Source: a virus. From it: a stretch of 64,000 bases of DNA. Under the pieces are notes generated by a model. The model saw nothing but the letters and a program-made list of their open reading frames with translations. It was not told the DNA's origin and made no database searches. Positions within the stretch are counted from its first letter, which is position 1. Every line of letters starts with the position of its first letter. The stretch covers positions 21,775-85,774 of IMG/VR virus record IMGVR_UViG_3300005466_000026; one strand, written 5' to 3'. The position numbers and the translations under genes were made by a program. Of the stretch, positions 16,846 to 27,789 are shown in pieces.

Positions 16846-18849
16846 CTATTTTGGAAGGTCAGCCCACGTGCCGGTCGCGGTTCCCCACGTCCGGCCGTAC
16901 TCGGCGTCCACCATCATGGGAACCTCGAGAGAAACTATCTCGCGCATGATCTGCGTTATCTCGTTCCCTGTCTTCTCACTGGCCTGACTGAAGCCGAGCT
17001 CGTCGTGCATCTGGATGAGCGGTACGTGGCCAGCATCGTAGCACGCTCGCATGGCCATCTTGGTCTGCCGCGCCGCGCTGCCCTGAATGAGACCATTCAT
17101 GGCCTTTCGACACTCGGCCCGCCGCAGTCTCTTGCCGTACCACGGATGGTCCTTGTCCCTCACCCGCTCGCGAGCCTCCTCGATCCGGCAGTAGCCCATC
17201 TTGATCTGGCCGCCGCTGCCCCATCCTCTGCGCCGCTCGTCCTCTGAGAGCCAAGTCGGCTCCCACATGTCGAAGTGAATTCGGGCTCCGTCTATCAGCC
17301 GTATGAACCCGGTGCGACTGGCCTTCTCCTGACACAGAGTGTTCAGCTGCTTGACGAACGGCATCTGCTCGTCGTACTGCGTCATTATCTTCTCGGCCTC
17401 CTCCATGCTCTTGTTGATCATGGAGGCGAACTTCTTCACGCCAGCGCCGTACGACTTCGCGAAATTCGTGTCCTTCGCTGGCTTGCGCGGCAGACCAGTC
17501 ATGTCGGCGACCATGCTGTGAAAGTCGGTGCGCGGATCTGTTCTGTAGCGAGTCGCGGCCTCCAGCGCCTTCTTCAGCTTGTTGCGAACCGCGAAGTGCA
17601 CTATCAGCCGGTACTCCTGCTGAGAGTAGTCCGCCGACATCCACGCCTCGCCCTCCTCGGGCAGGAACAGCCCCCGGATGAGCGTCGCCAGCTCCTCGTT
17701 CCGATGCGGCATCTGCTGCAGCGGGGGGTCGGAGTAGCTGAAGCGATAAGTGCGAGTGCCGCCCTCCTCGGACTTGAACTGATTGATGGAGGCGTGAAGC
17801 CTGCCGAGATGGGCGTAGTCTATGATGTACGACTGAACGAACTTGTGCGCGGCCTCGTGATACTCCTTCGCCTTGACCAGCATGGGAGGGAGCCAGTGCG
17901 GCGAGTCCTTCATCCACTTCTTCTCGAAGCTGCCGCGTCCAGTACCGTCGCGCGGGAACTTGATCTTCAGCTTGGTGAATACGTCCGTCATCCAGCCGTT
18001 GGATCGCAGGTCGTCGATGTCGACGCCGTGTCCCAGCTTGGAGCTGATGTCGCGGAAGGTCTCCCTAGACGTCTCGATGCAGTGTGCCTTCACCTGCTCG
18101 GCGGCCTCTAGATCTACGCGAATGCCGCGCCTGCGCATGGCGTGGACCACCGGCAGGAGATCCATCTCGAGCTGGTACGCGTCTACTGTCTTCTCCTTCT
18201 CCATCAGCGGTCGCAGCTTGTGCGCCAGCTGGAGCGTGCGAACCGCGTCGGTCTCCGCGTACTCTCCCACGAACTTGGCCGGGAGCCGCCACATGTCCGT
18301 CTTCGGATCGATGCCGTAGGACGCCGCTGCGTCTCTGAGAACTCGCTCCTCCTTGCCCGGTAGTCCTTGCCACTCGCAGAGCGCGTCGAGATTGAACTCG
18401 AAGCGGTTCTCGTCTATCATGTTGGCCATGCACGTCGTGTCGTCCACCTGGGATGGACACCCGACGCCGAGATCTACGTCGCCCCATCCCACGTCGAACG
18501 GCGCGTTCTGCATCACGAAGCGGACGCCAGCCCTCTGATGGTCCTTCTCCCATCTGGCGATCTGGTCGGGCTGGAAGCACTCGGTGTCCGGATGCCTGAT
18601 CGGCGCGTAGAAGGACTCGAAGACCTCACCCTTCTTCCACGCTGCGCTGACGCCTATCACGTAGCCAGCCTTCATCGCCCATCCTGGACCGCGCTCGGCC
18701 GCGAGGCCGTCGTCCTTGCACTCGCGGTCGAAGCCTATCTCCTTGCACCTGCGGAGATCAGGCAGCTCAGTCGGCGGCTCCCAGTCGCTGGTCGGCGTGA
18801 ACAGCGGGTCCTGAAAGCCGCCGACGTGATAGTTCTTGCGCTTCTTCAA
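16846..18849 (-). CDS. Family A DNA polymerase with 3'-5' exonuclease domain
   Basis: Replicative polymerase of the PolA/T7 type. I start at TTG 18849, which overlaps the upstream TGA and follows GGAGGCGGAGAC, giving 667 residues. Proofreading domain: FDREC with D41/E43 (Exo I), NAPFD 115-119 (Exo II), YAETD 198-202 (Exo III). Polymerase domain: motif A DYSQQEYR (407-414), motif B KDTNFAKSYG (459-468), motif C MHDEL (614-618). No 5'-nuclease domain is present. All key catalytic residues are there. It leads the cluster of DNA synthesis and modification genes. Confidence 0.95.
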   Translation of the reverse strand: MKKRKNYHVGGFQDPLFTPTSDWEPPTELPDLRRCKEIGFDRECKDDGLAAERGPGWAMKAGYVIGVSAAWKKGEVFESFYAPIRHPDTECFQPDQIARWEKDHQRAGVRFVMQNAPFDVGWGDVDLGVGCPSQVDDTTCMANMIDENRFEFNLDALCEWQGLPGKEERVLRDAAASYGIDPKTDMWRLPAKFVGEYAETDAVRTLQLAHKLRPLMEKEKTVDAYQLEMDLLPVVHAMRRRGIRVDLEAAEQVKAHCIETSRETFRDISSKLGHGVDIDDLRSNGWMTDVFTKLKIKFPRDGTGRGSFEKKWMKDSPHWLPPMLVKAKEYHEAAHKFVQSYIIDYAHLGRLHASINQFKSEEGGTRTYRFSYSDPPLQQMPHRNEELATLIRGLFLPEEGEAWMSADYSQQEYRLIVHFAVRNKLKKALEAATRYRTDPRTDFHSMVADMTGLPRKPAKDTNFAKSYGAGVKKFASMINKSMEEAEKIMTQYDEQMPFVKQLNTLCQEKASRTGFIRLIDGARIHFDMWEPTWLSEDERRRGWGSGGQIKMGYCRIEEARERVRDKDHPWYGKRLRRAECRKAMNGLIQGSAARQTKMAMRACYDAGHVPLIQMHDELGFSQASEKTGNEITQIMREIVSLEVPMMVDAEYGRTWGTATGTWADLPK

Positions 18850-19808
18850 GTCTCCGCCTCCCACGCGCGGTCTATCAGGTGATGCTTCTCGTCGCTCGGG
18901 TTCCACTCGTAGAGTGTAGCGACCCACTCCTGCATCTTCTCCCACTCGTGACGATTGGCTTCTTCCTGAAACTTCGGGAAGTACTCTCTGGCGCCGAGAG
19001 GACACAGAGCGATCTTGACGACGTACAAGTTACCCTGCGTCGGCTTGAAGTCGTACAGACTGCGGATGAGCGCGGGCGGCTCTCCGAACTTCGGATCGCA
19101 CACGCTGGCCTCTAGAACCCACAGAGGACCGACTCTTCTGAACCACGTCTCGATGTGCATCTGCGTGAATACGTTGTTGATCACGTCGTCGGTCATCACC
19201 CACGGAGCCAGCGACTCGTGCTGCCCGCCGTCCTCAGGAGTACCGATGACTCTCTTGTCGTCGAACGGTGGTTTAGAGTACGCGTCCACCGACTCTACGC
19301 TGGTGTCGCTGTTCCAGACCTCGCTCATCCTGCGAGCCTCCTCCGCAGTCAGCCGAGGCGCGACGATGATCTTCTTCTCTCGCTCCGGCAGCACCGCGCC
19401 GCGCGAGATCATCTCGGCCTCGATCAGCGTGGCGTAGCGCCGCAGGTCCCGGAGGCAGGCTAGAACGCTGCCGTCCTTGCCGCTCGGGTCGTCGTGTATC
19501 TTCTCGAAGACGTCCTCCTCGCTCAGCTTCTGCACCATCCACTCGGCCAGCTCGTGAGACAGCGTGTACTCCTTGTCCGGGTCCGTAGCTACGTCCTGAA
19601 GGTCCTCTCGGCTGAAGCTCTCCGGCCACGGCACGGAGGCCATCATGTTCAGCAGTCGGTCCATGTTCCTGCGAAACATGAACCACGCGCTTCGTCCACC
19701 GGCCATCTTCCAGCTTCCCTGATAGGTGGCCTCCTTCTCCCTGAGCAGCATGACGTCGCTGTCGGCGACGCGCTGCAGATGCTCCAGATGCTTCATGTCG
19801 TGGCTCAT
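18846..19808 (-). CDS. Protein with Nmad1-like (DUF1599-like) N-terminal domain
   Basis: ATG 19808 overlaps the upstream stop. The N-terminal 90 residues (REKEATYQGSWKMAGGRSAW, then FRRNMDRLLNM) resemble nucleotide modification associated domain 1, found next to thymidylate-synthase-like enzymes in phages with modified bases. The later part is beta-rich (WVLEASVCDPKFGEPPALIR; YVVKIALCPLGAREYF) and not recognised. Nmad1 proteins have no established biochemistry that I know. Its position between the polymerase and the HD/thymidylate-synthase-like genes supports a nucleotide role. Confidence 0.6.
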   Translation of the reverse strand: MSHDMKHLEHLQRVADSDVMLLREKEATYQGSWKMAGGRSAWFMFRRNMDRLLNMMASVPWPESFSREDLQDVATDPDKEYTLSHELAEWMVQKLSEEDVFEKIHDDPSGKDGSVLACLRDLRRYATLIEAEMISRGAVLPEREKKIIVAPRLTAEEARRMSEVWNSDTSVESVDAYSKPPFDDKRVIGTPEDGGQHESLAPWVMTDDVINNVFTQMHIETWFRRVGPLWVLEASVCDPKFGEPPALIRSLYDFKPTQGNLYVVKIALCPLGAREYFPKFQEEANRHEWEKMQEWVATLYEWNPSDEKHHLIDRAWEAET

Positions 19809-20311
19809 GATATCTTCACTCCCTTCATCCACTCGTCGACCTTGACGTACTGATACAGCTCGTCCGCCATCTTGAGTGCGATCTCTCTGGTGTCGCGCAT
19901 GGGTATTGCGGCGTACTGATTACCCATCATGAACTCGTGAAAGCAGAACTCGTACATCTCCAGCAGGTCGCAGATCTTGAACCGCTTCCACTCGTCCTCT
20001 CGCATCTGCGGCAGCTCGATCTGCTGATGACCCAGACCCAGTCTCTCGGCCTCGTTGACAGCCGCGCCGTAGCCCTCGACTCGGTGCTTGCCGCCGAACG
20101 GAACGTCGCCGGCGAACTGCTCTCCCATGTCGTGATGCAGGCAGTAGTAGAGAACCTCCGCGCGAGGAATACCGAACACCTCGCAGTAGATCTGCGCGAC
20201 GCGACCCTGATGCTCGATCACGTTCGGCTTTCGCAGAGTCGGCCAAGTGTGCCATCGCGCCACCTGACCGGCTAGATGCCTTGATCTGTAGACTTGATCT
20301 CTAGTAACCAT
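19805..20311 (-). CDS. HD-domain hydrolase (YfbR-like 5'-nucleotidase type)
   Basis: The 168 residues show the HD order: early RSRHLAGQVARWHTWP and EHQGRVA (first His), YYCLHHDMGEQFAGDVPFG (the HD pair and ligand region) and KICDLLEMYEF (late Asp). YfbR-like enzymes dephosphorylate deoxynucleoside monophosphates; in phages they often sit next to dNMP-modifying enzymes, removing the unmodified nucleotide. Substrate is inferred from context. It is tightly coupled to both neighbours. Confidence 0.8.
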   Translation of the reverse strand: MVTRDQVYRSRHLAGQVARWHTWPTLRKPNVIEHQGRVAQIYCEVFGIPRAEVLYYCLHHDMGEQFAGDVPFGGKHRVEGYGAAVNEAERLGLGHQQIELPQMREDEWKRFKICDLLEMYEFCFHEFMMGNQYAAIPMRDTREIALKMADELYQYVKVDEWMKGVKIS

Positions 20312-21463
20312 TCACATCCTCCTCGTCATCCACTCGGTGCACGCCACGCGCCAGTCCTCTGACTGGATCTCGTTGGCTGCAGCCACCGCTCTTATCTTCT
20401 GGCCGTCTCTCCACAGACGGTGCGACCGAACAACCGGCTGAGCAACCTCGCAGAACCAGTCGTTCTCGCAATGTCTCAGAGGTACGTCGCTCTCTGTTCG
20501 GTAGCACTCGTCGTGCCACGACATGAACTCGATGACGTCCTCGTCGGCCTTCTCTCCGACCGTGAATACCGGGCGCGTCTTCAGCCGAAGAGAGAAGTAC
20601 CTGTCGTCGTGCAGGGCGCCGACTATGCTGCTCTCCTCCTTGGCCATTCGCTTGGTCATAACGCCGAGCATCGTCTCGTACATGTGAAAGTTGTTCGAGA
20701 GAACGTACAGATCACCCATCGCCACGCCGACGCGAGCAGCCAGATACTCCTGCAGAAAGCTGAAGTGCACCGAGTTCGCGCCGTAGAGTCCCCAGACGAT
20801 GTCGTTACTGCGGCAGCACACCGTCATGTCCAGAACTCTGTTCCCCTTAGATATGACCACGCCGTCCGGCCAGTGATCTGGACCGTCTCCGCGCACTCTG
20901 AGATAGATGTGCGTGTTGCACGGTCTGTCCTTCCACTCGCCGGTGAGGTCCAGAGCGCCGACCTCCTGCTCGCCGACGTTGCCGTTACCCAGACTAACGG
21001 GCAGCGTGACGCTGGAGCAGTCCCACATCTGGATGACGCACTGACGCGTCCCCGGGTCCTTGATCAGCCGATCCACGACCGCTCCCAGCTGATCAAGTCC
21101 GAAGCGGAAGCGCCATCGGTGTCCGTACGCTCCGTGGATCTGACCCCCGGCCTCCCAGTTCGCGCTCCCGCTGGCGCTCTCGGCGAACCGCTGGCCGAAG
21201 TCCGTCACGTAGTGGTTCAGCGTCTCGGCGTCGTCCCTGCCAGCCAGCATCCAGATGGCCTCCACGACGTGAAAGAATGGATTGGCATCTCTCACCTTGC
21301 TGAAGACCACGCGCTCCCACGGTCTCTTGAGGCGCGTGACGACGGGACCGGGGGCGACTAGGCAGGGACCCGCCCGAGTCTTCTCGAGCAGGCCGGAGTT
21401 GATTAGCAGGTGCACTCCCTTCGGGAGTGCCGCCGCTGAGTTCGTGGTGTCGATGACGTGCAT
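20312..21463 (-). CDS. Thymidylate synthase / dNMP hydroxymethylase family enzyme
   Basis: The family uses 5,10-methylene-tetrahydrofolate to methylate or hydroxymethylate position 5 of dUMP or dCMP. Motifs: YGHRWR (113-118), PC with the catalytic Cys182, CRSNDIVWGLYGAN (217-230) and NNFHMY (257-262). The Asn in GAN sits about where Asn177 of E. coli ThyA contacts uracil; dCMP hydroxymethylases usually have Asp. This favours dUMP as substrate. At 383 residues it is longer than ThyA (264), with an insertion around 150-178 and a C-terminal extension. The HD, Nmad1-like and DNA-kinase-like neighbours favour hydroxymethylation over plain thymidylate synthesis. Confidence 0.85.
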   Translation of the reverse strand: MHVIDTTNSAAALPKGVHLLINSGLLEKTRAGPCLVAPGPVVTRLKRPWERVVFSKVRDANPFFHVVEAIWMLAGRDDAETLNHYVTDFGQRFAESASGSANWEAGGQIHGAYGHRWRFRFGLDQLGAVVDRLIKDPGTRQCVIQMWDCSSVTLPVSLGNGNVGEQEVGALDLTGEWKDRPCNTHIYLRVRGDGPDHWPDGVVISKGNRVLDMTVCCRSNDIVWGLYGANSVHFSFLQEYLAARVGVAMGDLYVLSNNFHMYETMLGVMTKRMAKEESSIVGALHDDRYFSLRLKTRPVFTVGEKADEDVIEFMSWHDECYRTESDVPLRHCENDWFCEVAQPVVRSHRLWRDGQKIRAVAAANEIQSEDWRVACTEWMTRRM

Positions 21464-21479: not shown

Positions 21480-21758
21480 TCAGAACGGTATCTCGTCGTC
21501 GTCCACCTCGGTGCGGCGTTTGCCGCCTCCGAAGGACGGCTTGTCGTCGCCGCTGCCGCTGCGCTCTGCGCGCTCCTTCGGCTCGAACAGCATGATAACT
21601 ATCTTGTTCTCCTTCTTGGGGTCCGGGACGGGGACGCTGTCCAGGTAGATAGTGATCTGTCCCTTGTCGTTCTGGTGAGCCTGTCCTACTCGGTGCCACC
21701 AGACACCGTCCTCGTTGTACTTAGGTCTCGGAGTCATCGCGTCGTATCTCTTCGGCAT
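21480..21758 (-). CDS. 92-aa protein with SSB-like acidic tip
   Basis: The body (DGVWWHRVGQAHQNDKGQIT, then a strand LDSVPVPDP) resembles small plasmid and phage proteins of unknown function with the W-x-R-x-G-x-A-x-x-x-x-D-G pattern. The C-terminus EVDDDEIPF strongly resembles the DDDIPF tip by which bacterial SSB recruits replication proteins. It may bind ssDNA, or use the tip to recruit SSB partners. It overlaps the end of the upstream gene by 38 bases. Confidence 0.65.
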   Translation of the reverse strand: MPKRYDAMTPRPKYNEDGVWWHRVGQAHQNDKGQITIYLDSVPVPDPKKENKIVIMLFEPKERAERSGSGDDKPSFGGGKRRTEVDDDEIPF

Positions 21759-22200
21759 GTGGCTGTCCCTTGAGATAGAGTTCTTCCAGCAGTATCGCCG
21801 CCAGACCCGCGCACTCTGGATCGTTGTACCAGCGGCACAATCCAGAGGGATGAGGTAGCTGCCGCCATGTGCATCCGTTCATCTGAACAGGGTGAATAAG
21901 TATCTTGGGGAGCTCCAGTGCACTGCGCACCTGCTCCCCGAACACGACAATGGTACGTCCGGCGTAGAGCGAAGGAAAACGCTCCGCCGCTGCCTTGGCC
22001 ACCGGCCTGCTCCACGTTCTGGAGTTGATCAGGTTGAGCCGCTCGAAGCCGTCCATGTATCCCTTTCGCGTGACCTGCGGCTGGCGCGTCTGCAGAAGCC
22101 TCCAGAGACGGTAGCCGCTGCTCCCGGACGGGAACGGAGCGAGCGCGTACCTGGGATCCGCCGACAGCGGATTGTTCATTCCCAGCAGTACGGCCCTCAC
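21721..22200 (-). CDS. Uracil-DNA-glycosylase-superfamily-like protein
   Basis: GTG 22200 overlaps the kinase stop (GTGA). Of the 159 residues, LLGMNNPLSADPRYALAPFP occupies the place of UDG motif I, FERLNLI and TIVVFGEQV fit the core strands, and LPHPSGLCRWYNDPE resembles the HPS-containing leucine-loop motif of families such as MUG/TDG. It could recognise or process a modified base, or be a fold relative without glycosylase activity. The motif I residues are not canonical, so this is a fold-level call. Confidence 0.55.
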   Translation of the reverse strand: MRAVLLGMNNPLSADPRYALAPFPSGSSGYRLWRLLQTRQPQVTRKGYMDGFERLNLINSRTWSRPVAKAAAERFPSLYAGRTIVVFGEQVRSALELPKILIHPVQMNGCTWRQLPHPSGLCRWYNDPECAGLAAILLEELYLKGQPHAEEIRRDDSET

Positions 22201-22745
22201 ACCAGATTGAGCCACCGAAACACCTTCGCGAACACCTGCTCGCGGGATCCTAAAAAGCATTCCACCTTCTCCTCTTGAAAGTCGTAGTAGTGTCTGCGAC
22301 TCTTTCTGTGCAGCGCCTCGATAGTCTTCTCCTGGATCTTGTGACCGCGCTCACGAACGGCCTTGACGCAGTCCTCCAGAGGCTCGTCTATCAGGGCGAC
22401 CGCTATCGGTAGTCCGGCGTCCCGAAGATCGAGCAGGTTCTGTGGCTTGTCGGTGAAGTTCTTTCCCTCGTAGAGCACGTTGCATCCGAGCTCCAGAGCG
22501 TGGATCCTCATCAGTTCGTACGCCAGCGGTAGACTAGGCAGCGTGTCCAGTCCGCCGTTCGCTATCTCGTAGTGTCCGGGAACGTACAGATGCTTCTCGT
22601 TGATGTTGTTGTGAGTCAGGATGTATCCGGCAGGCTTCTGTCTGCCGGGATACTCCAGCTTGCGGCTCACCGGATAGAAGGACATGATCCTGCGGACCAG
22701 ATGCGACTTGCCCGCGCCGTTCGTTCCCAGGAGACTGATTATCAT
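22197..22745 (-). CDS. P-loop kinase resembling phage 5-hydroxymethyl-dU DNA kinase
   Basis: Walker A is LGTNGAGKSHL at residues 6-16. The rest fits a nucleotide-kinase fold: YEGKNF after a long helix, DEPLEDCVKAVRERG as the lid and late helices with a KSRRHYYDF stretch. Phages with hypermodified thymine encode P-loop kinases of this size (about 180 residues) that phosphorylate 5-hmdU in DNA. The context (thymidylate-synthase-like, HD, AADT-like and radical SAM genes) supports that, but a free-nucleotide or RNA kinase cannot be excluded. ATG 22745 overlaps the upstream stop. Confidence 0.6.
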   Translation of the reverse strand: MIISLLGTNGAGKSHLVRRIMSFYPVSRKLEYPGRQKPAGYILTHNNINEKHLYVPGHYEIANGGLDTLPSLPLAYELMRIHALELGCNVLYEGKNFTDKPQNLLDLRDAGLPIAVALIDEPLEDCVKAVRERGHKIQEKTIEALHRKSRRHYYDFQEEKVECFLGSREQVFAKVFRWLNLV

Positions 22746-23119
22746 GAGTGCTGATCCAGCTGACTGATCTCGTGCATGTTCGCCAGCGCGAACTCTCGAC
22801 GGTCCTTCTTGTCCATGTCGTAGCACATCAGCAGCCACTGAGGAGTCTCGTACCACTCGCTGGTTCCCCACCGCACGCTGATGGGATTAACTGTTCGCCA
22901 GCTGAACGAGCCGCGATAGTTGACGTAGCTGAAGCGAAGAGTCTGCGTCGGCCGAGCCTCGTCCTGATGCATCTCCAGTATGCGAGCCAGCGCGGACAGA
23001 TGATTGGTCGCCGAGGTGATCACCTCTCGAGCTCCCGTGTAGGACCATGCCGGATGCTCGCGACATAGCCTCTCGATGCTGGCGGCTAGATCTCTCAGGC
23101 TATGCTTCTGCGCTGGCAT
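22742..23119 (-). CDS. WYL-domain-like protein
   Basis: ATG 23119 follows GGAGGCGAC. After a helical N-terminus, residues 68-120 (LRFSYVNYRGSFSWRTVNPI, then PQWLLMCYDMDKKDRREFAL) follow the WYL pattern: Y-x-N-x-x-G, R-x-V-x-P, W-x-L-x-x-Y-D, R-x-F-x-L. WYL domains sense ligands or nucleic acids, often in defence and DNA-repair regulators. Here there is no HTH, so it may be an effector-binding subunit. Confidence 0.6.
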   Translation of the reverse strand: MPAQKHSLRDLAASIERLCREHPAWSYTGAREVITSATNHLSALARILEMHQDEARPTQTLRFSYVNYRGSFSWRTVNPISVRWGTSEWYETPQWLLMCYDMDKKDRREFALANMHEISQLDQHS

Positions 23120-24179
23120 CGTCGCCTCCTCTGGGTCCCTGATAGGCTGGCACCGGCTCGCGATCCTTCCACGGCAGACGCACCACCTTGTCGCGCTGAC
23201 CATGCGAGAGAGCCTCCTGGATGTCTGCCGCCGTCTGCGCGTCGGGCTTGTGCAGCTTGCCCTGACCCATCAGGTCCGGAAGCAGGCCGACGCGATAGCT
23301 GCGATGATTGCACCCTCGGCACGGCGTGAAGTCGCGCTCGCCGCGTATCAGCTTCTCCCTGGCGGCTCCCATCGCGTCGCCCTGCCACAGCTCACCGATG
23401 TTGGTCTCGTTCGTGTTGCCCACGAAGTACGGACTGTCCCACGTGTTGCAGCACAGAGGAACGTTGCCGTCCCAGTGAATGGCGATCTGCCTGAACGGAT
23501 GATGACACCGCTTGCCTGCCATACTGTCGTCGGGCGCGAAGGCGAGGCCAGCGTAGTTGAACACCTTGCCGTGATTGCCAATCTTCTTGTCGGCCGCCTG
23601 CGACGCGAGATCCCGTATCTTCACCAGCGTCCTCGTGCCCGGTCTTCGGCGCTTGTGCGGGTTCCCGCGAATGTCCCGCGGATAGTCGTAGTAGGTGAAG
23701 CCAAGAGGATGCTTGACGCCCGATCGCAGCTTGCCCTTCTCCTCGATGGCCGCGATGACCTTCTCCACGAACTTCACGTTCTCGTAGTCGTCCAGCCCGA
23801 GGACGCTGACGCCAGCGTCGAACAGCGCTGTCACGTTCACCACCGGACCCGGCTTCCTGAGTAGTCCCCCGGCGTTGGTCAGCATCGTGATGTGCGCCTT
23901 CGGCAGACACTCGCGAGTGGCCGCCATCATCCCCACGTAGTCCGGATGCATGGTGGGCTCACCGCGCATGGCGAAGCCGACGCGACAGTTCCAGCCGAGA
24001 GCTCTCACGTCCGTGAGCGCCTTGACCAGCGTCTCCTTCTTCATGAACTCGTATCCCTTGCCCTGCTTCTCCTGTATCGCGGAGACCGCGCAGAAAGGAC
24101 AGTTTAGATTACAGCCGCGCGTCAGCTCCAGCGTGACGTTGAACGGGGGTTCCTGAGTACGGTATCTTCGGCGCGTCAT
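23100..24179 (-). CDS. Radical SAM enzyme with SPASM-like C-terminal cysteines
   Basis: The 4Fe-4S motif is CNLNCPFC (Cys23, 27, 30), preceded by a strand LELTRG. AMRGEPTMHP is the GGEP-like SAM-binding motif. Near residue 240 a second Cys set begins (RCHHPF, CCNTW, then CRGCNHR), as in SPASM auxiliary cluster domains, which act on peptides or carbohydrates. In hypermodified-thymine phages a radical SAM enzyme can rearrange the amino acid attached to DNA; here the substrate is inferred from neighbours. 359 residues, ATGA-coupled to the glycosyltransferase-like gene. Confidence 0.8.
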   Translation of the reverse strand: MTRRRYRTQEPPFNVTLELTRGCNLNCPFCAVSAIQEKQGKGYEFMKKETLVKALTDVRALGWNCRVGFAMRGEPTMHPDYVGMMAATRECLPKAHITMLTNAGGLLRKPGPVVNVTALFDAGVSVLGLDDYENVKFVEKVIAAIEEKGKLRSGVKHPLGFTYYDYPRDIRGNPHKRRRPGTRTLVKIRDLASQAADKKIGNHGKVFNYAGLAFAPDDSMAGKRCHHPFRQIAIHWDGNVPLCCNTWDSPYFVGNTNETNIGELWQGDAMGAAREKLIRGERDFTPCRGCNHRSYRVGLLPDLMGQGKLHKPDAQTAADIQEALSHGQRDKVVRLPWKDREPVPAYQGPRGGDDASAEA

Positions 24180-25126
24180 AGGTTCTTCTCCAGTCTGTTG
24201 TAGGCCTCTAGGACCTTGTCCTTCAGATCTCGCTTCTCGCGAGCAGCCTTCAGCCACCATCGGTCCTGCTGCTCCTTCAGTATCTCTGCCCGTCTGGACA
24301 TCCTGCGCTGAACGGAGGCCGCGTTGCTGACCAGGAAGTCTCCTGGGTCATAGCCTGCCTTGCGCAGCGTGTAGCCCGCCTCCTCCTGGAACACCATAGG
24401 AAGTCCGCCGCTGAGCATCTCGTAGAAGCGGTTGGGAGGCGAGTGGAAGTTGCTGTGCGACTTGGCGTCCTCGAGATAGAGGCCGAGGCCGTGCCGTCCC
24501 AGCTCGGAGTGCAGATCCTCTATCTTCTTGACGTGTCGCACGTTGGGTCCGTTGTACTTCTGCTCGAACCGACTTGTCGGCGAGGAGATGGTTATGGGCA
24601 GCGACGGACTGTTGAAGAACTTGTCGAACGCCTTGGTTCGGCCGGCTCGGAAGCTTCCGTAGTAGAAGAGGTCTCCGGCGTCCTTCTTATTCAGAGGCGG
24701 CTTCTCCTCCTCGAACCCCAGAGCGTTCCAGTTTATCAGCGAGCTGAGAGTCGTGAGCTTGCTCTCCCTCTCGCAGGTCGTCCAGAACTCCAGGTGCGAC
24801 TTACCCGCCTTGCGTCGGTCGACGAACGCCTTGCGGAACGGCGACGTAGCGTCGCCGTCGTTGATGGGCGGAACTATGGTGTAGTCCTGCTGTATCCAGA
24901 CGATGCGCCTGACGCCGCGTATGGCGTGCGACAGCGGCTCTAGATGCTTGCAGAAGGCGTATGCCCCGTTCACTATGAAGAGGACGTCCGCCGTCTTGTA
25001 GAGCTCAATGGTCTCGTCGTCCACCAGCGGCAGGTCCAGCGTCTTGCTGAGAAAGAACGCCGCCTTGACCGACGCGACCATCGACTTCTCGCTGCACGCT
25101 ATGAAGCTGAATATGGCTGCCTTCAC
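24176..25126 (-). CDS. GT-B-like glycosyltransferase
   Basis: The 316-residue product has a two-domain layout. The C-terminal half begins DLFYYGSFRAGRTKAF and contains GLGLYLEDAKSHSNFHSP with PNRFYEMLSGGLPMVFQEEA, the E-x-x-x-x-G-x-P signature of nucleotide-sugar-binding GT-B domains. GTG 25126 follows AGAGGTGAGAC. It would transfer a sugar to an unknown acceptor; in this island modified DNA is an attractive candidate, as in T4-type hmC or kinetoplastid base J systems. LPS or protein glycosylation are alternatives. Confidence 0.7.
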   Translation of the reverse strand: MKAAIFSFIACSEKSMVASVKAAFFLSKTLDLPLVDDETIELYKTADVLFIVNGAYAFCKHLEPLSHAIRGVRRIVWIQQDYTIVPPINDGDATSPFRKAFVDRRKAGKSHLEFWTTCERESKLTTLSSLINWNALGFEEEKPPLNKKDAGDLFYYGSFRAGRTKAFDKFFNSPSLPITISSPTSRFEQKYNGPNVRHVKKIEDLHSELGRHGLGLYLEDAKSHSNFHSPPNRFYEMLSGGLPMVFQEEAGYTLRKAGYDPGDFLVSNAASVQRRMSRRAEILKEQQDRWWLKAAREKRDLKDKVLEAYNRLEKNL

Positions 25127-25332
25127 GTCTCACCTCTCTGCTTCTGGAAGTCCCTGACTTGGTTAATTATCCTCTGCTTCGCGCCCGAAGCCAAGTTCTG
25201 AATGGCTCTCTGCTGCCAGCACGTGGGATCTCGCGGCGGCAGATGCGAGACGTAGTCTGCGTAGCTGAGAACGTCTCCGTAGTCGGAGTCCGTGTCCCGA
25301 GCGATCTTGAGAAGCGGATAGCTGGTGCTCAT
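25123..25332 (-). CDS. Hypothetical 69-aa protein
   Basis: A small soluble protein (MSTSYPLLKIARDTDSDYGD; CWQQRAIQNLASGAKQRIIN) coupled by ATGA-type overlaps to the methyltransferase and glycosyltransferase genes. It could be an accessory subunit; no family recognised. Confidence 0.6.
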   Translation of the reverse strand: MSTSYPLLKIARDTDSDYGDVLSYADYVSHLPPRDPTCWQQRAIQNLASGAKQRIINQVRDFQKQRGET

Positions 25333-25943
25333 CTTCGGTCCATTCTCAGGACGTGCCAGCCTGCCTCGAAGATCGGCACGTCACCCGTGATCTTGAAGCC
25401 GCCGCGACTGATCATGGCCAGGAACTTCTTCCTGTCGTGCTCTGCCGTGTTGCTCTTCAGCACGTACTTGTCGCCGAAGCGTATCGTGCAGATGATGGAC
25501 CTCTTCGCGAGCTTCATGAAGCCCCTCATGGCCGCCTGCATGGAGGGCTCGTCGATGAGGTCCAGGAACCGCACCGCCACGATCACGTCGGAGGGTGGCA
25601 AGCCCTCCAGCTTTCTGGCGTCGCCGACCTGCAGGACGTAGGACGGCGGCACCTTCTTGTTCTTCAGCTTCCCCTTAGCTATGGCGAGCATCTGCTCCGA
25701 GGAGTCTACGCCCGTAACGGTGGCCACGCTCAGCTGATGATACAGATAGAAGAACCTGCCGGTTCCCACCGGGCAATCGATCACGGTCTGCGGCCTCAGC
25801 TCGGTGAGCATGTCCTCGACCGCCGCGTTCTCCTCGCCCCATCGTATCTGCTTCTTGCGCTTGGCCTCGTAGCCGCTCGCCATCTTACCGCGATACTTTC
25901 TCGCGGTCCTGTCTCCCAGATTGAATGCCGCAGATGGTCTCAT
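25329..25943 (-). CDS. Class I SAM-dependent methyltransferase
   Basis: Motif I is TVIDCPVGTGRFFYLYHQ (about residues 53-70), followed by the acidic end of strand 2 (VTGVDSSEQMLAIAKGKL) and VGDARKLEGLP as motif III. No DNA-MTase DPPY/PC motif is visible, so a small-molecule, lipid or sugar substrate (UbiE/COQ5-like) is more likely than direct base methylation. In this island it may methylate an added group. It could also serve the glycosyltransferase product. Confidence 0.75.
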   Translation of the reverse strand: MRPSAAFNLGDRTARKYRGKMASGYEAKRKKQIRWGEENAAVEDMLTELRPQTVIDCPVGTGRFFYLYHQLSVATVTGVDSSEQMLAIAKGKLKNKKVPPSYVLQVGDARKLEGLPPSDVIVAVRFLDLIDEPSMQAAMRGFMKLAKRSIICTIRFGDKYVLKSNTAEHDRKKFLAMISRGGFKITGDVPIFEAGWHVLRMDRR

Positions 25944-26138
25944 CTATCTCCTCCCCTTGCTGTCGAAGACTACTCTTCCGGTTGATCTCTCGAAGCACGT
26001 GACCGCCGCGCTGCTGTTTCTAGCCATCGCGCCCACGAACTCCTTGCAGGCTTCCTTGCTGTCGAACTTGACCTGCTTCGGCTCCTCGCATCCGAGGAAG
26101 CTGCAGAACGTTATGAGTACGAAGAATGGACTTTCCAT
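25944..26138 (-). CDS. 64-aa protein with N-terminal hydrophobic segment
   Basis: The start MESPFFVLITFCSFLGCEEP looks like a very short signal sequence; LGC followed by acidic residues could even be a lipobox. The rest contains VKFDSKEACKEFVGAM. It lies just downstream of the homing endonuclease, overlapping its end by 28 bases. Function unknown. Confidence 0.55.
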   Translation of the reverse strand: MESPFFVLITFCSFLGCEEPKQVKFDSKEACKEFVGAMARNSSAAVTCFERSTGRVVFDSKGRR

Positions 26139-26917
26139 GTCACTTCTCCTAATTGCTGCTTCATCTTCATGCCTTTATTCCACGGTTCTCGTCCTTTCAT
26201 TGCGGCACTCATTTTTGCACGAGACTCAAGAGTGTGCTTCTTACCTTTTCTCTTCGACGGTTTTCCTTTCTGTGCTGCGCTCATCTTAGCTCGAGACTCA
26301 GCTGTATGTTTCCGACCTGCTATCCAGGGAATTTGACCCTTATGAACATCACTCATCTTTTTTCGGTGCTCAGGATTTTCCCACGCCTTCTTGATTAAAT
26401 CTTTCAATATGATTGAGCCTCTCTCACGATAATCAGGATCTTTCCATCTTTCTTTTGACTCTCTTCTCATTTTATTCGCTTGGCGCTCTCGATACTCTGG
26501 ATCTTTCCACTGCTCTTTTAATTGCCTTGTCATAGAAGCACTCCTACGCTCACGAAATTCAGAGGACTCCCATAGCTTCACGACTGCTAGTCTCATTGCT
26601 TCACGTGAAGCTTCTCTGGAGATAGCGTATTGCCAGCTAGAGCATGGTCTGCCTTGAGTCATTCTACTGAGTGCACTCACCATCTGATGATGTGCTCTGC
26701 CATCAAGAATAAATTTAGTCAAGAGCCAGTGTGCCAGAAAATGTTCTCGATAGGTCAGTGAGACCAAGTTCTCTGAGCTGTTATACCAGCTCGGATCTCC
26801 GCCGAAACTTCTAGGGTTTCGGTGATGTCTCTCGTAACGTACTCCTGGTTCGCGCTCGCGGCTCGCGGCGCGATCCATGATCTGCGTGTACCAGAGACGA
26901 TACTTCTCAGTGCTCAC
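26111..26917 (-). CDS. HNH homing endonuclease with NUMOD3 repeats
   Basis: ERHHRNPRSFGGDPSWYNSS then ENLV and HFLAHWLLTKF give the HNH catalytic arrangement. Repeats of EF/YRER..S..M..E.WKDPEYRER type follow, and the C-terminal repeats RKHTAESRAKMSAAQKG and KKHTLESRAKMSAAMKG are NUMOD3 DNA-binding motifs. GTG 26917 overlaps the AADT-like gene stop. It is visibly more A/T-rich than its neighbours, as expected for a recent mobile insert. Flanking genes look complete, so it appears free-standing rather than intron-encoded. Confidence 0.85.
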   Translation of the reverse strand: MSTEKYRLWYTQIMDRAASREREPGVRYERHHRNPRSFGGDPSWYNSSENLVSLTYREHFLAHWLLTKFILDGRAHHQMVSALSRMTQGRPCSSWQYAISREASREAMRLAVVKLWESSEFRERRSASMTRQLKEQWKDPEYRERQANKMRRESKERWKDPDYRERGSIILKDLIKKAWENPEHRKKMSDVHKGQIPWIAGRKHTAESRAKMSAAQKGKPSKRKGKKHTLESRAKMSAAMKGREPWNKGMKMKQQLGEVTWKVHSSYS

Positions 26918-27789
26918 GCGAACACTCCTCTTGGTCTGCCCTCGCCGTTCCTGACTCTCTCGTACTTGTCGAACTCGCAGAGCGTGTGCTCGACGTCTCG
27001 CATCTCCCACTTGGGCCACTGCCTCGGCCAGTTGCCCGGACTGCAACTGGCCGCGAGGATCAGCTGCATCTCCTCCAGCATCTTGGGCACCCTGACGCTC
27101 TTATCCTTCTTGTTCCTGCCGTGTATCCGGTTCAGTCCGCGCCTCGCCCCCGGTCCCACGTTGCACCAGCTCATGATGTCGTTCGCGTCGCAGAGAAGGT
27201 TGGTGTGCCGCAGGTCCGTGACTATCTCGTACGAGTGAAATGTGCCGAGCCACGGCTGCATCTTGAACCAGAGCCAAGCCGTCTGCAGAGACATCTTCTC
27301 CTTAATCATCTGCTTGGCAGCGTCCCTCCATCCGCTCTCCTCTCTGAAGTTCTTCAGGATCTCCAGGATCCCGTCCAGCTTGGTGAAGCCGGGGGGAGAG
27401 GTTATGATGTACGCTCCGGTGACGTAGGGGCCGTCACCGCAGATCGCCTTGACGTCCTTCTTCATGCGTCGCAGGTCTCCGGTCTGCAGGAACACCGCGA
27501 AGGCGTTGTTCTTGTCGAAGTCCAGGTGATTGAAGATGGCCTCTCCCGTGCTGATCCTGTTGAACATGCGGAACACGACCGTGGCCAGTAGCACGTCCGG
27601 CGAGTCTCTCATCTCCTCCCTCACGTTGCGTCGGAACCAGTCAGTGGTCTTGTCCAGCTCCCGGAAGACGTTCGTGAACCTGTACTTCTGCAGGATCGGG
27701 TCCCTCGTCAGGGACGACTTCCCCTCCAGACGGTTCAGGTACACCTGATGTCGCTGCCTCGCGTAGTTGAAGAAGGACTGCATCGTCAT
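26914..27789 (-). CDS. Amino acid:DNA transferase-like protein (aGPT-pyrophosphorylase / HMUDK helical family)
   Basis: Residues 5-60 (YARQRHQVYLNRLEGK, DPILQKYRFTNVFRELDKTT) match the helical family predicted as alpha-glutamyl/putrescinyl-thymine pyrophosphorylase, later shown in phages such as ViI and M6 to attach amino acids to pyrophosphorylated 5-hmdU in DNA (AADT). Also typical are GAYIITSPPG (about 146-155) and SYEIVTDLRHTNLLCDANDI plus a late basic GARRGLNRIHG. 291 residues is the expected size. It is one of the clearest markers of thymine hypermodification here. ATG 27789 lies within the end of the exonuclease frame. Confidence 0.75.
   Translation of the reverse strand: MTMQSFFNYARQRHQVYLNRLEGKSSLTRDPILQKYRFTNVFRELDKTTDWFRRNVREEMRDSPDVLLATVVFRMFNRISTGEAIFNHLDFDKNNAFAVFLQTGDLRRMKKDVKAICGDGPYVTGAYIITSPPGFTKLDGILEILKNFREESGWRDAAKQMIKEKMSLQTAWLWFKMQPWLGTFHSYEIVTDLRHTNLLCDANDIMSWCNVGPGARRGLNRIHGRNKKDKSVRVPKMLEEMQLILAASCSPGNWPRQWPKWEMRDVEHTLCEFDKYERVRNGEGRPRGVFA

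Follow-up and report, generated by a model that had tools for sequence, protein, structure and literature searches.

Phage genes for thymidine hypermodification are usually interpreted in terms of the amino-acid pathway known from phages M6, ViI, and PaMx11. In the cluster of Pseudomonas phage M6 and Sphaerotilus phage SN1 (5-NedU in M6), a thymidylate synthase (TS) homolog, a P-loop kinase, a gene of the helical family formerly named aGPT-Pplase1, and a radical SAM gene lie by the gene for a family A DNA polymerase (PolA) (PMC9476957). In Pfam, this helical family is PF18723 (HMUDK_hel, "5-hmdU DNA kinase, helical domain"), and it is separate from PF18724 (ADDT, "Amino acid:DNA transferase," aGPT-Pplase2). 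When purified, the 5-hmdU DNA kinase acts on SP8 DNA, in which it phosphorylates 5-hmdU with a preference for TG and TC (PMC7653180, PMC6449724). The DNA of Bacillus phage SP-15 contains a modified uracil carrying sugar, partly via a phosphodiester (PMC5977210). In HTVC023P-type pelagiphages (Clades V, VIII, and IX), aG/PT-PPlase1 is paired with TS by PolA, and some of these phages have a glucosyltransferase and a 5'-deoxynucleotidase in the same region (PMC9599517). Here, we analyze a phage locus with a PF18723 gene in which the TS homolog stands near PolA, as in 5-hmdU thymidine-hypermodification clusters, and in which a T4 beta-glucosyltransferase (BGT)-like glycosyltransferase takes the place of ADDT, no ADDT being present in the cluster.

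Results

The window analyzed here, 64,000 bases long, runs from base 21775 to base 85774 of a linear IMG/VR virus record of 85,774 bases. At the other end, genes for terminase, portal, and capsid proteins identify the virus as a tailed phage. The open reading frame at 26914..27789 on the minus strand, which the initial annotation had singled out together with the string PILQKYRFTNVFRELD, is present, as is the string, and encodes a protein of 291 aa, from here on hel. It matches PF18723 with E=3.2e-46 and 158 bits (cut-off 25) over residues 3-282 (profile positions 4-277 of 281) and phrog_2396 with E=7e-55. We regard its membership in PF18723 as virtually certain, and its earlier assignment to the aGPT-Pplase superfamily is confirmed by this profile match. 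Hel is 43% identical to its PaMx11 counterpart and 34% identical to SN1 aGPT-Pplase1 over nearly the whole length. By tblastn, relatives were found in 126 phage records, and at least 80% of hel is covered in 123 of them. Moreover, pN/pS is ∼0.08 in comparison with the near-identical contig L009, 0.45 with L070, and 0.50 with L023. Hel is a real, conserved gene that evolves as a protein under purifying selection. Among 50 hel sequences, the polar residues R13, R43, D46, D192, D204, R264, E267, H268, C271, E272, and K275 are invariant. The PILQKYRFTNVFRELD segment corresponds to residues 31-46 and covers F38, R43, and D46, all of which are invariant across the 50 relatives, as is D30 directly before it.

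Two features of the immediate surroundings of hel are of note. An upstream exonuclease open reading frame overlaps the start of hel by ∼149 bases (27641-27789) in a different frame, and this overlap is also retained in L070, in which the exonuclease identity is ∼51%. At the other end, a gene for a NUMOD3-type homing endonuclease (26111..26917, minus strand, with its start at 26878 or 26917; NUMOD3 E 2e-18; phrog_655, homing endonuclease) has its insertion point precisely at the stop codon of hel, and in L009 this site is empty.

The initial annotation had further proposed that the hel product attaches amino acids to pyrophosphorylated hmdU in DNA. This proposal is not supported. PF18724 gave no match in the hel protein, while positive controls matched, and nothing at E≤10 in the whole 85,774-base record. 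Hel did not align with the SN1 (M6-type) ADDT/aGPT-Pplase2, as opposed to its clear identity with SN1 aGPT-Pplase1, and hhalign of the hel profile against the ADDT profile gave a probability of 1.5%, i.e., no match. Because hel matches PF18723 and not PF18724 and the record contains no ADDT, hel is not the amino-acid-attaching enzyme, and its identification as an ADDT was rejected. In addition, phages with the known amino-acid pathway hold each family as a separate gene: PaMx11 and Sonora each have one PF18723 gene and one PF18724 gene, and SN1 is annotated in the same way.

Because a sequence search of solved structures with hel gave no match, including to the glycinyltransferase 8z2m, hel was compared through a structure model. 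The AF2 (AlphaFold) model is all-helical with a pLDDT of 95. In Foldseek, the best PDB matches were HhH 8-oxoguanine glycosylases (OGG) and PaMx11 PUGT; these matches are weak (E 0.2 or worse, TM 0.30-0.43), also for PaMx11 PUGT/gp46 (ADDT) 8z2n (prob 0.94, E 0.2, TM 0.43). The initial annotation had suggested a comparison with the HhH-glycosylase fold; the helical architecture is borne out, and the similarity to HhH DNA glycosylases is weak. Judged from the model, an HhH-glycosylase-like fold is plausible for hel, and the match to PUGT may point to a distant shared ancestry of the two aGPT-Pplase families, which profile comparison does not detect.

The surroundings of hel had been read as a base-modification layout, and this reading holds: the TS homolog, P-loop kinase, radical SAM, and methyltransferase genes are all located at most 7.5 kb away. 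The order of the module is hel - (methyltransferase) - T4-BGT-like glycosyltransferase (GT) - radical-SAM/SPASM - P-loop kinase - UDG-like - TS homolog - HD phosphatase - PolA. All genes described below are on the minus strand.

The gene at 24176..25126 encodes a GT-B glycosyltransferase of the T4 BGT type (316 aa; 37 relatives). This protein has no Pfam family by Pfam scan, and a sequence search of solved structures gave no match, T4 BGT included; its assignment was therefore made with Foldseek via an AF2 model, which was built from six sequences and has a pLDDT of 81, the five models spanning 52 to 81. The top Foldseek match of this model is T4 BGT 1j39 (E 3e-9, prob 1.00, TM 0.65), and the matches also include T4 alpha-glucosyltransferase with HMU-containing DNA. 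D81, R160, R163, and E236 are invariant across 25 relatives, and these residues may resemble the catalytic Asp and the UDP-sugar contacts of BGT. Judging by its locus, the GT may glycosylate a hydroxymethylpyrimidine in DNA.

The adjoining gene at 23100..24179, with its likely start at MTRRRYRTQEPP, encodes a radical SAM/SPASM enzyme (Radical_SAM 1.7e-11, SPASM 5e-12) with a CX3CX2C motif. Its nearest PDB sequence is BtrN 4m7t, with E 1e-9 over the SPASM/twitch region. BtrN, a cyclitol dehydrogenase, oxidizes a cyclitol alcohol. With BtrN as the nearest solved relative, a sugar-editing role of this enzyme is a reasonable inference from the sequence. The enzyme was also considered as the M6 isomerase, and this was rejected because the two sequences are unrelated. 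The SAM-dependent methyltransferase at 25329..25943 (204 aa; Methyltransf_25 E 1.7e-10) has homologs in some relatives of the module (L028, L070, L110-L112, L117, L128, and L129). Searches of the named phages for the radical SAM enzyme and the methyltransferase of the window found neither.

The P-loop kinase (22197..22745) is of the partner type of 5-hmdU DNA kinase, has an intact Walker A motif (GTNGAGKSH), and is located 4 kb from hel, i.e., not adjacent to it. It is 38% identical to the PaMx11_49 kinase and matches phrog_800, the kinase-hel fusion family, with E 1e-10 and the kinase profile A3 with 4e-65, although A3 itself includes the window kinase. Hel is tied to this kinase type by a natural fusion: a 636-aa protein of Bacillus phage Goe26 (L021:5053-6963) has kinase PF18748 at 35-193 and PF18723 at 312-597. 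In PaMx11, Sonora, and SN1, the kinase and hel genes are direct neighbors. The label "terminase small subunit" of phrog_800 is wrong, the family being the 5-hmdU kinase and hel fusion, and this misnomer has been propagated into phage records, e.g., those of PAKlein3, PaMx11, Ab18, and Ab19.

The gene that separates the radical SAM gene from the kinase gene encodes a small protein with a weak WYL-like domain (22742..23203; WYL E 6.5e-5), which may be a regulator. Modified nucleotides are among the ligands that WYL proteins can bind. The protein encoded at 21721..22227 matches phrog_12275 (E 1e-23) and nothing significantly in Pfam, NCBIfam, and PDB, so that the name UDG-like, for the UDG superfamily, stands for its motifs (GMNNP...PHPSG..WYN). 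These are invariant in a nine-member alignment, the protein is found near the TS homolog in ∼20 related loci, and it is possibly 5-hmU- or uracil-directed. The TS homolog (20312..21463; PF00303 E 3e-15; phrog_5131 E 1e-81) retains RPC, CRSND, and the Asn of GANSVHFSF and is presumably a dUMP hydroxymethylase rather than a TS. The module is completed by an HD-domain 5'-deoxynucleotidase-like protein for pool control (19805..20311; YfbR-like E 3e-6; phrog_7076, dATP triphosphohydrolase, 1e-10) and PolA (16846..19005; DNA_pol_A E 6e-42).

We surveyed the partners of hel and of the GT separately. With a profile of 10 hel sequences, at least 584 viral stretches were recovered, from which we retained 80 loci. 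For the census of hel partners, 50 long records (49 of the 80 retained loci and Escherichia phage vB_EcoM_IME392, from here on IME392) were searched whole; this sample reflects a ranking by similarity to the query and includes near-duplicates. TAGT glycosyltransferases were found in 16 of these records, the kinase in 15, ADDT in eight, and BGT-like enzymes in four, counts that depend on profiles built from few sequences, with kinase absence judged by a profile of our own making, and in which a gene that was not found may still lie beyond the contig, since the records are linear and possibly incomplete. A kinase is present in all eight ADDT-positive records (hypergeometric value 1e-5), in all four BGT-like-positive records (0.006), and in only one of the 16 TAGT-positive records (0.01), values to be taken as no more than a rough guide, given the relatedness of the records. 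Hel occurs without kinase in 35 of the 50 records, with the same invariant residues and in the same place beside TS. Scanned in six frames for Walker A motifs, nearly all kinase-negative loci lacked any P-loop near hel other than that of a UvrD helicase. With ADDT in 8/50 hel-bearing records, the view of hel as a diagnostic gene stands insofar as it marks a thymidine-modification locus, but not as a sign of amino-acid attachment.

In the hel tree, the window belongs to a clade of nine (support 99/98), all of which have a glycosyltransferase (five BGT-like and four TAGT) and none of which has ADDT. In the record of the window itself, TAGT was searched for and gave nothing at E≤1. Across the hel loci, a TS homolog is present in ∼72/77, and in other loci a GT4-like glycosyltransferase or methyltransferases adjoin hel. 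Nine marine-type loci (L061, L065, L068, L075, L076, L082, L084, L085, and L100) have the order methyltransferase - hel - TS - PolA and lack both a kinase and a recognized glycosyltransferase; they are another, simpler hel partner set. Genes for sugar-nucleotide synthesis are present in cassettes of relatives, i.e., GDP-mannose dehydratase (L024), an epimerase (L038), and cytidylyltransferase with mannose-6-P isomerase (L101). In L101 (8664-9527) and L098, the stretch from hel to TS contains genes for a cytidylyltransferase, a mannose-6-P isomerase-type cupin, a GT-like protein, and a radical SAM enzyme, which suggests that phages with loci of this type make a sugar nucleotide themselves.

In the reverse direction, a GT-profile search recovered 37 viral loci, 34 of which were scanned with profiles built in this analysis. 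Hel is present in 29/34, the kinase in ∼22/34, and ADDT in 0/34, and most of the five loci without hel end close to the GT. The order hel-(methyltransferase)-BGT-radical SAM-kinase-(UDG-like)-TS recurs in GT-derived loci at 40 to 60% protein identity. Kinase-free GT loci with the order BGT-hel-TS or radical SAM-BGT-hel-TS also occur (L121, L125-L127, and L131-L135), those with BGT-hel-TS including L125, L127, L131, and L133-L135.

Discussion

Here, we identify hel as a PF18723 protein encoded in a conserved, ordered module. We favor, with moderate confidence, the idea that hel is the DNA-side subunit of a post-replicative 5-hmdU modification system of the glycosylation rather than the amino-acid branch. 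In this reading, hel would work with transferases of different kinds. Because the gene set lacks an amino-acid enzyme and includes a T4-like sugar-transferase and a radical enzyme, the thymines of this phage probably carry an altered sugar.

For the pathway, the individual reactions (phosphorylation, sugar transfer, and radical chemistry included), the sequence of substrates, and the final product are all inferred. The TS homolog would make 5-hmdUMP while the HD phosphatase limits dTMP/dTTP, and 5-hmdU would be incorporated by PolA. Hel, helical and probably HhH-glycosylase-like, would recognize 5-hydroxymethyluracil in duplex DNA or present it to the modifying enzyme, and some of the 5-hmdU would be phosphorylated by hel together with the P-loop kinase. 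The BGT-like enzyme would add a sugar to the hydroxymethyl group, or to its phosphate, after which the sugar may be oxidized or rearranged by the radical-SAM/SPASM enzyme and capped by the methyltransferase. In most such loci, the kinase and the BGT-like enzyme coexist, and either the sugar is on the phosphate or there are two kinds of modified T; with a sugar on the free hydroxyl, this coexistence would be hard to account for. In a broader reading, which we consider less likely than not, HMUDK_hel would be a general 5-hmdU-DNA adaptor that serves the kinase, BGT-type, TAGT, and other glycosyltransferases, and the undescribed thymine of this phage group would carry a (phospho)methyl-linked sugar that is oxidized or rearranged on the DNA by the SPASM radical-SAM enzyme and sometimes methylated.

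The kinase is also central to the strongest alternative, in which a 5-hmdU DNA kinase is split in two and hel serves solely as its second subunit, in keeping with the Pfam name; kinase-free genomes would then contain a relic or use another kinase partner, and the GT and the radical SAM enzyme would build on the phosphate. The Goe26 fusion and the presence of a kinase in every ADDT-positive and every BGT-like-positive record of the 50 fit this view, and SP-15, in which sugar is joined to a modified uracil by a phosphodiester (PMC5977210), provides a precedent. However, hel has kept its invariant residues and its place beside TS in the 35 kinase-free records, TAGT-positive records almost never have a kinase, and BGT-hel-TS loci exist without one; we therefore consider a strict kinase subunit possible but rather unlikely. 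That hel is itself the catalyst on 5-hmdU DNA, as a transferase or a glycosylase-like enzyme, and not a recognition subunit, could account for its many invariant polar residues and for those marine loci in which it is the only modification-specific gene beside TS. The hint of an HhH-like fold is in line with this idea, and D204, 22 residues past G182, may lie at about the position of the catalytic Asp in such enzymes. Yet in every locus type a better catalyst, be it kinase, GT, or methyltransferase, is encoded beside hel, and hel has no recognized cofactor site, making this scenario improbable. Finally, the reading of hel as the enzyme that transfers an amino acid to (pyro)phosphorylated hmdU has in its favor a superfamily name shared with ADDT and a weak likeness to the fold of the 5-PmdU glycinyltransferase PaMx11 gp46/PUGT, and it is extremely unlikely in view of the family assignment and the lack of alignment with ADDT.

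Returning to hel as a shared adaptor, it is the most conserved member beside the TS homolog, mostly without an amino-acid transferase and often without the kinase after which it is named. A role of hel as a common subunit for the recognition of 5-hmdU DNA would explain the origin of the sequence preference of the modifications, and hel would then provide one handle for finding phages with glycosylated thymine. If a radical-SAM enzyme does act on a sugar carried by DNA, this would represent a new DNA-modification step and a new shield against restriction.

T4 BGT, which acts on 5-hmC in T4, has the same GT-B fold and is the top match for the model of the window GT, but there is no match at the sequence level, and hel, kinase, and radical SAM genes are not known from the T4 locus. 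In Escherichia phage IME392, a relative of the GT adjoins the PF18723 gene and is accompanied by an AAA kinase and a TS homolog, with no ADDT; by contrast to the window, the block has no radical SAM gene, a PIG-L deacetylase is encoded nearby, and the GT is only 25 to 30% identical. The pairing of aGPT-Pplase1 with TS and the nearby glucosyltransferase have been noted before in pelagiphages; these are marine podoviruses, however, and the available part of their description mentions no kinase, ADDT, or radical SAM (PMC9599517). SP-15 differs in that its base is dihydroxypentyluracil and is made before polymerization. The PaMx11 locus (the PUGT/gp46 pathway) has kinase, hel, and TS in a row like the window; however, it has ADDT (solved, 8z2m/8z2n), an FAD enzyme, and an acetyltransferase where the window has the GT and the radical SAM enzyme. 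The M6-type cluster shares with the window the TS homolog, the P-loop kinase, hel, and a radical SAM gene by PolA, but has aGPT-Pplase2/ADDT and a PLP enzyme, whereas the window has the BGT-like GT and the SPASM enzyme.
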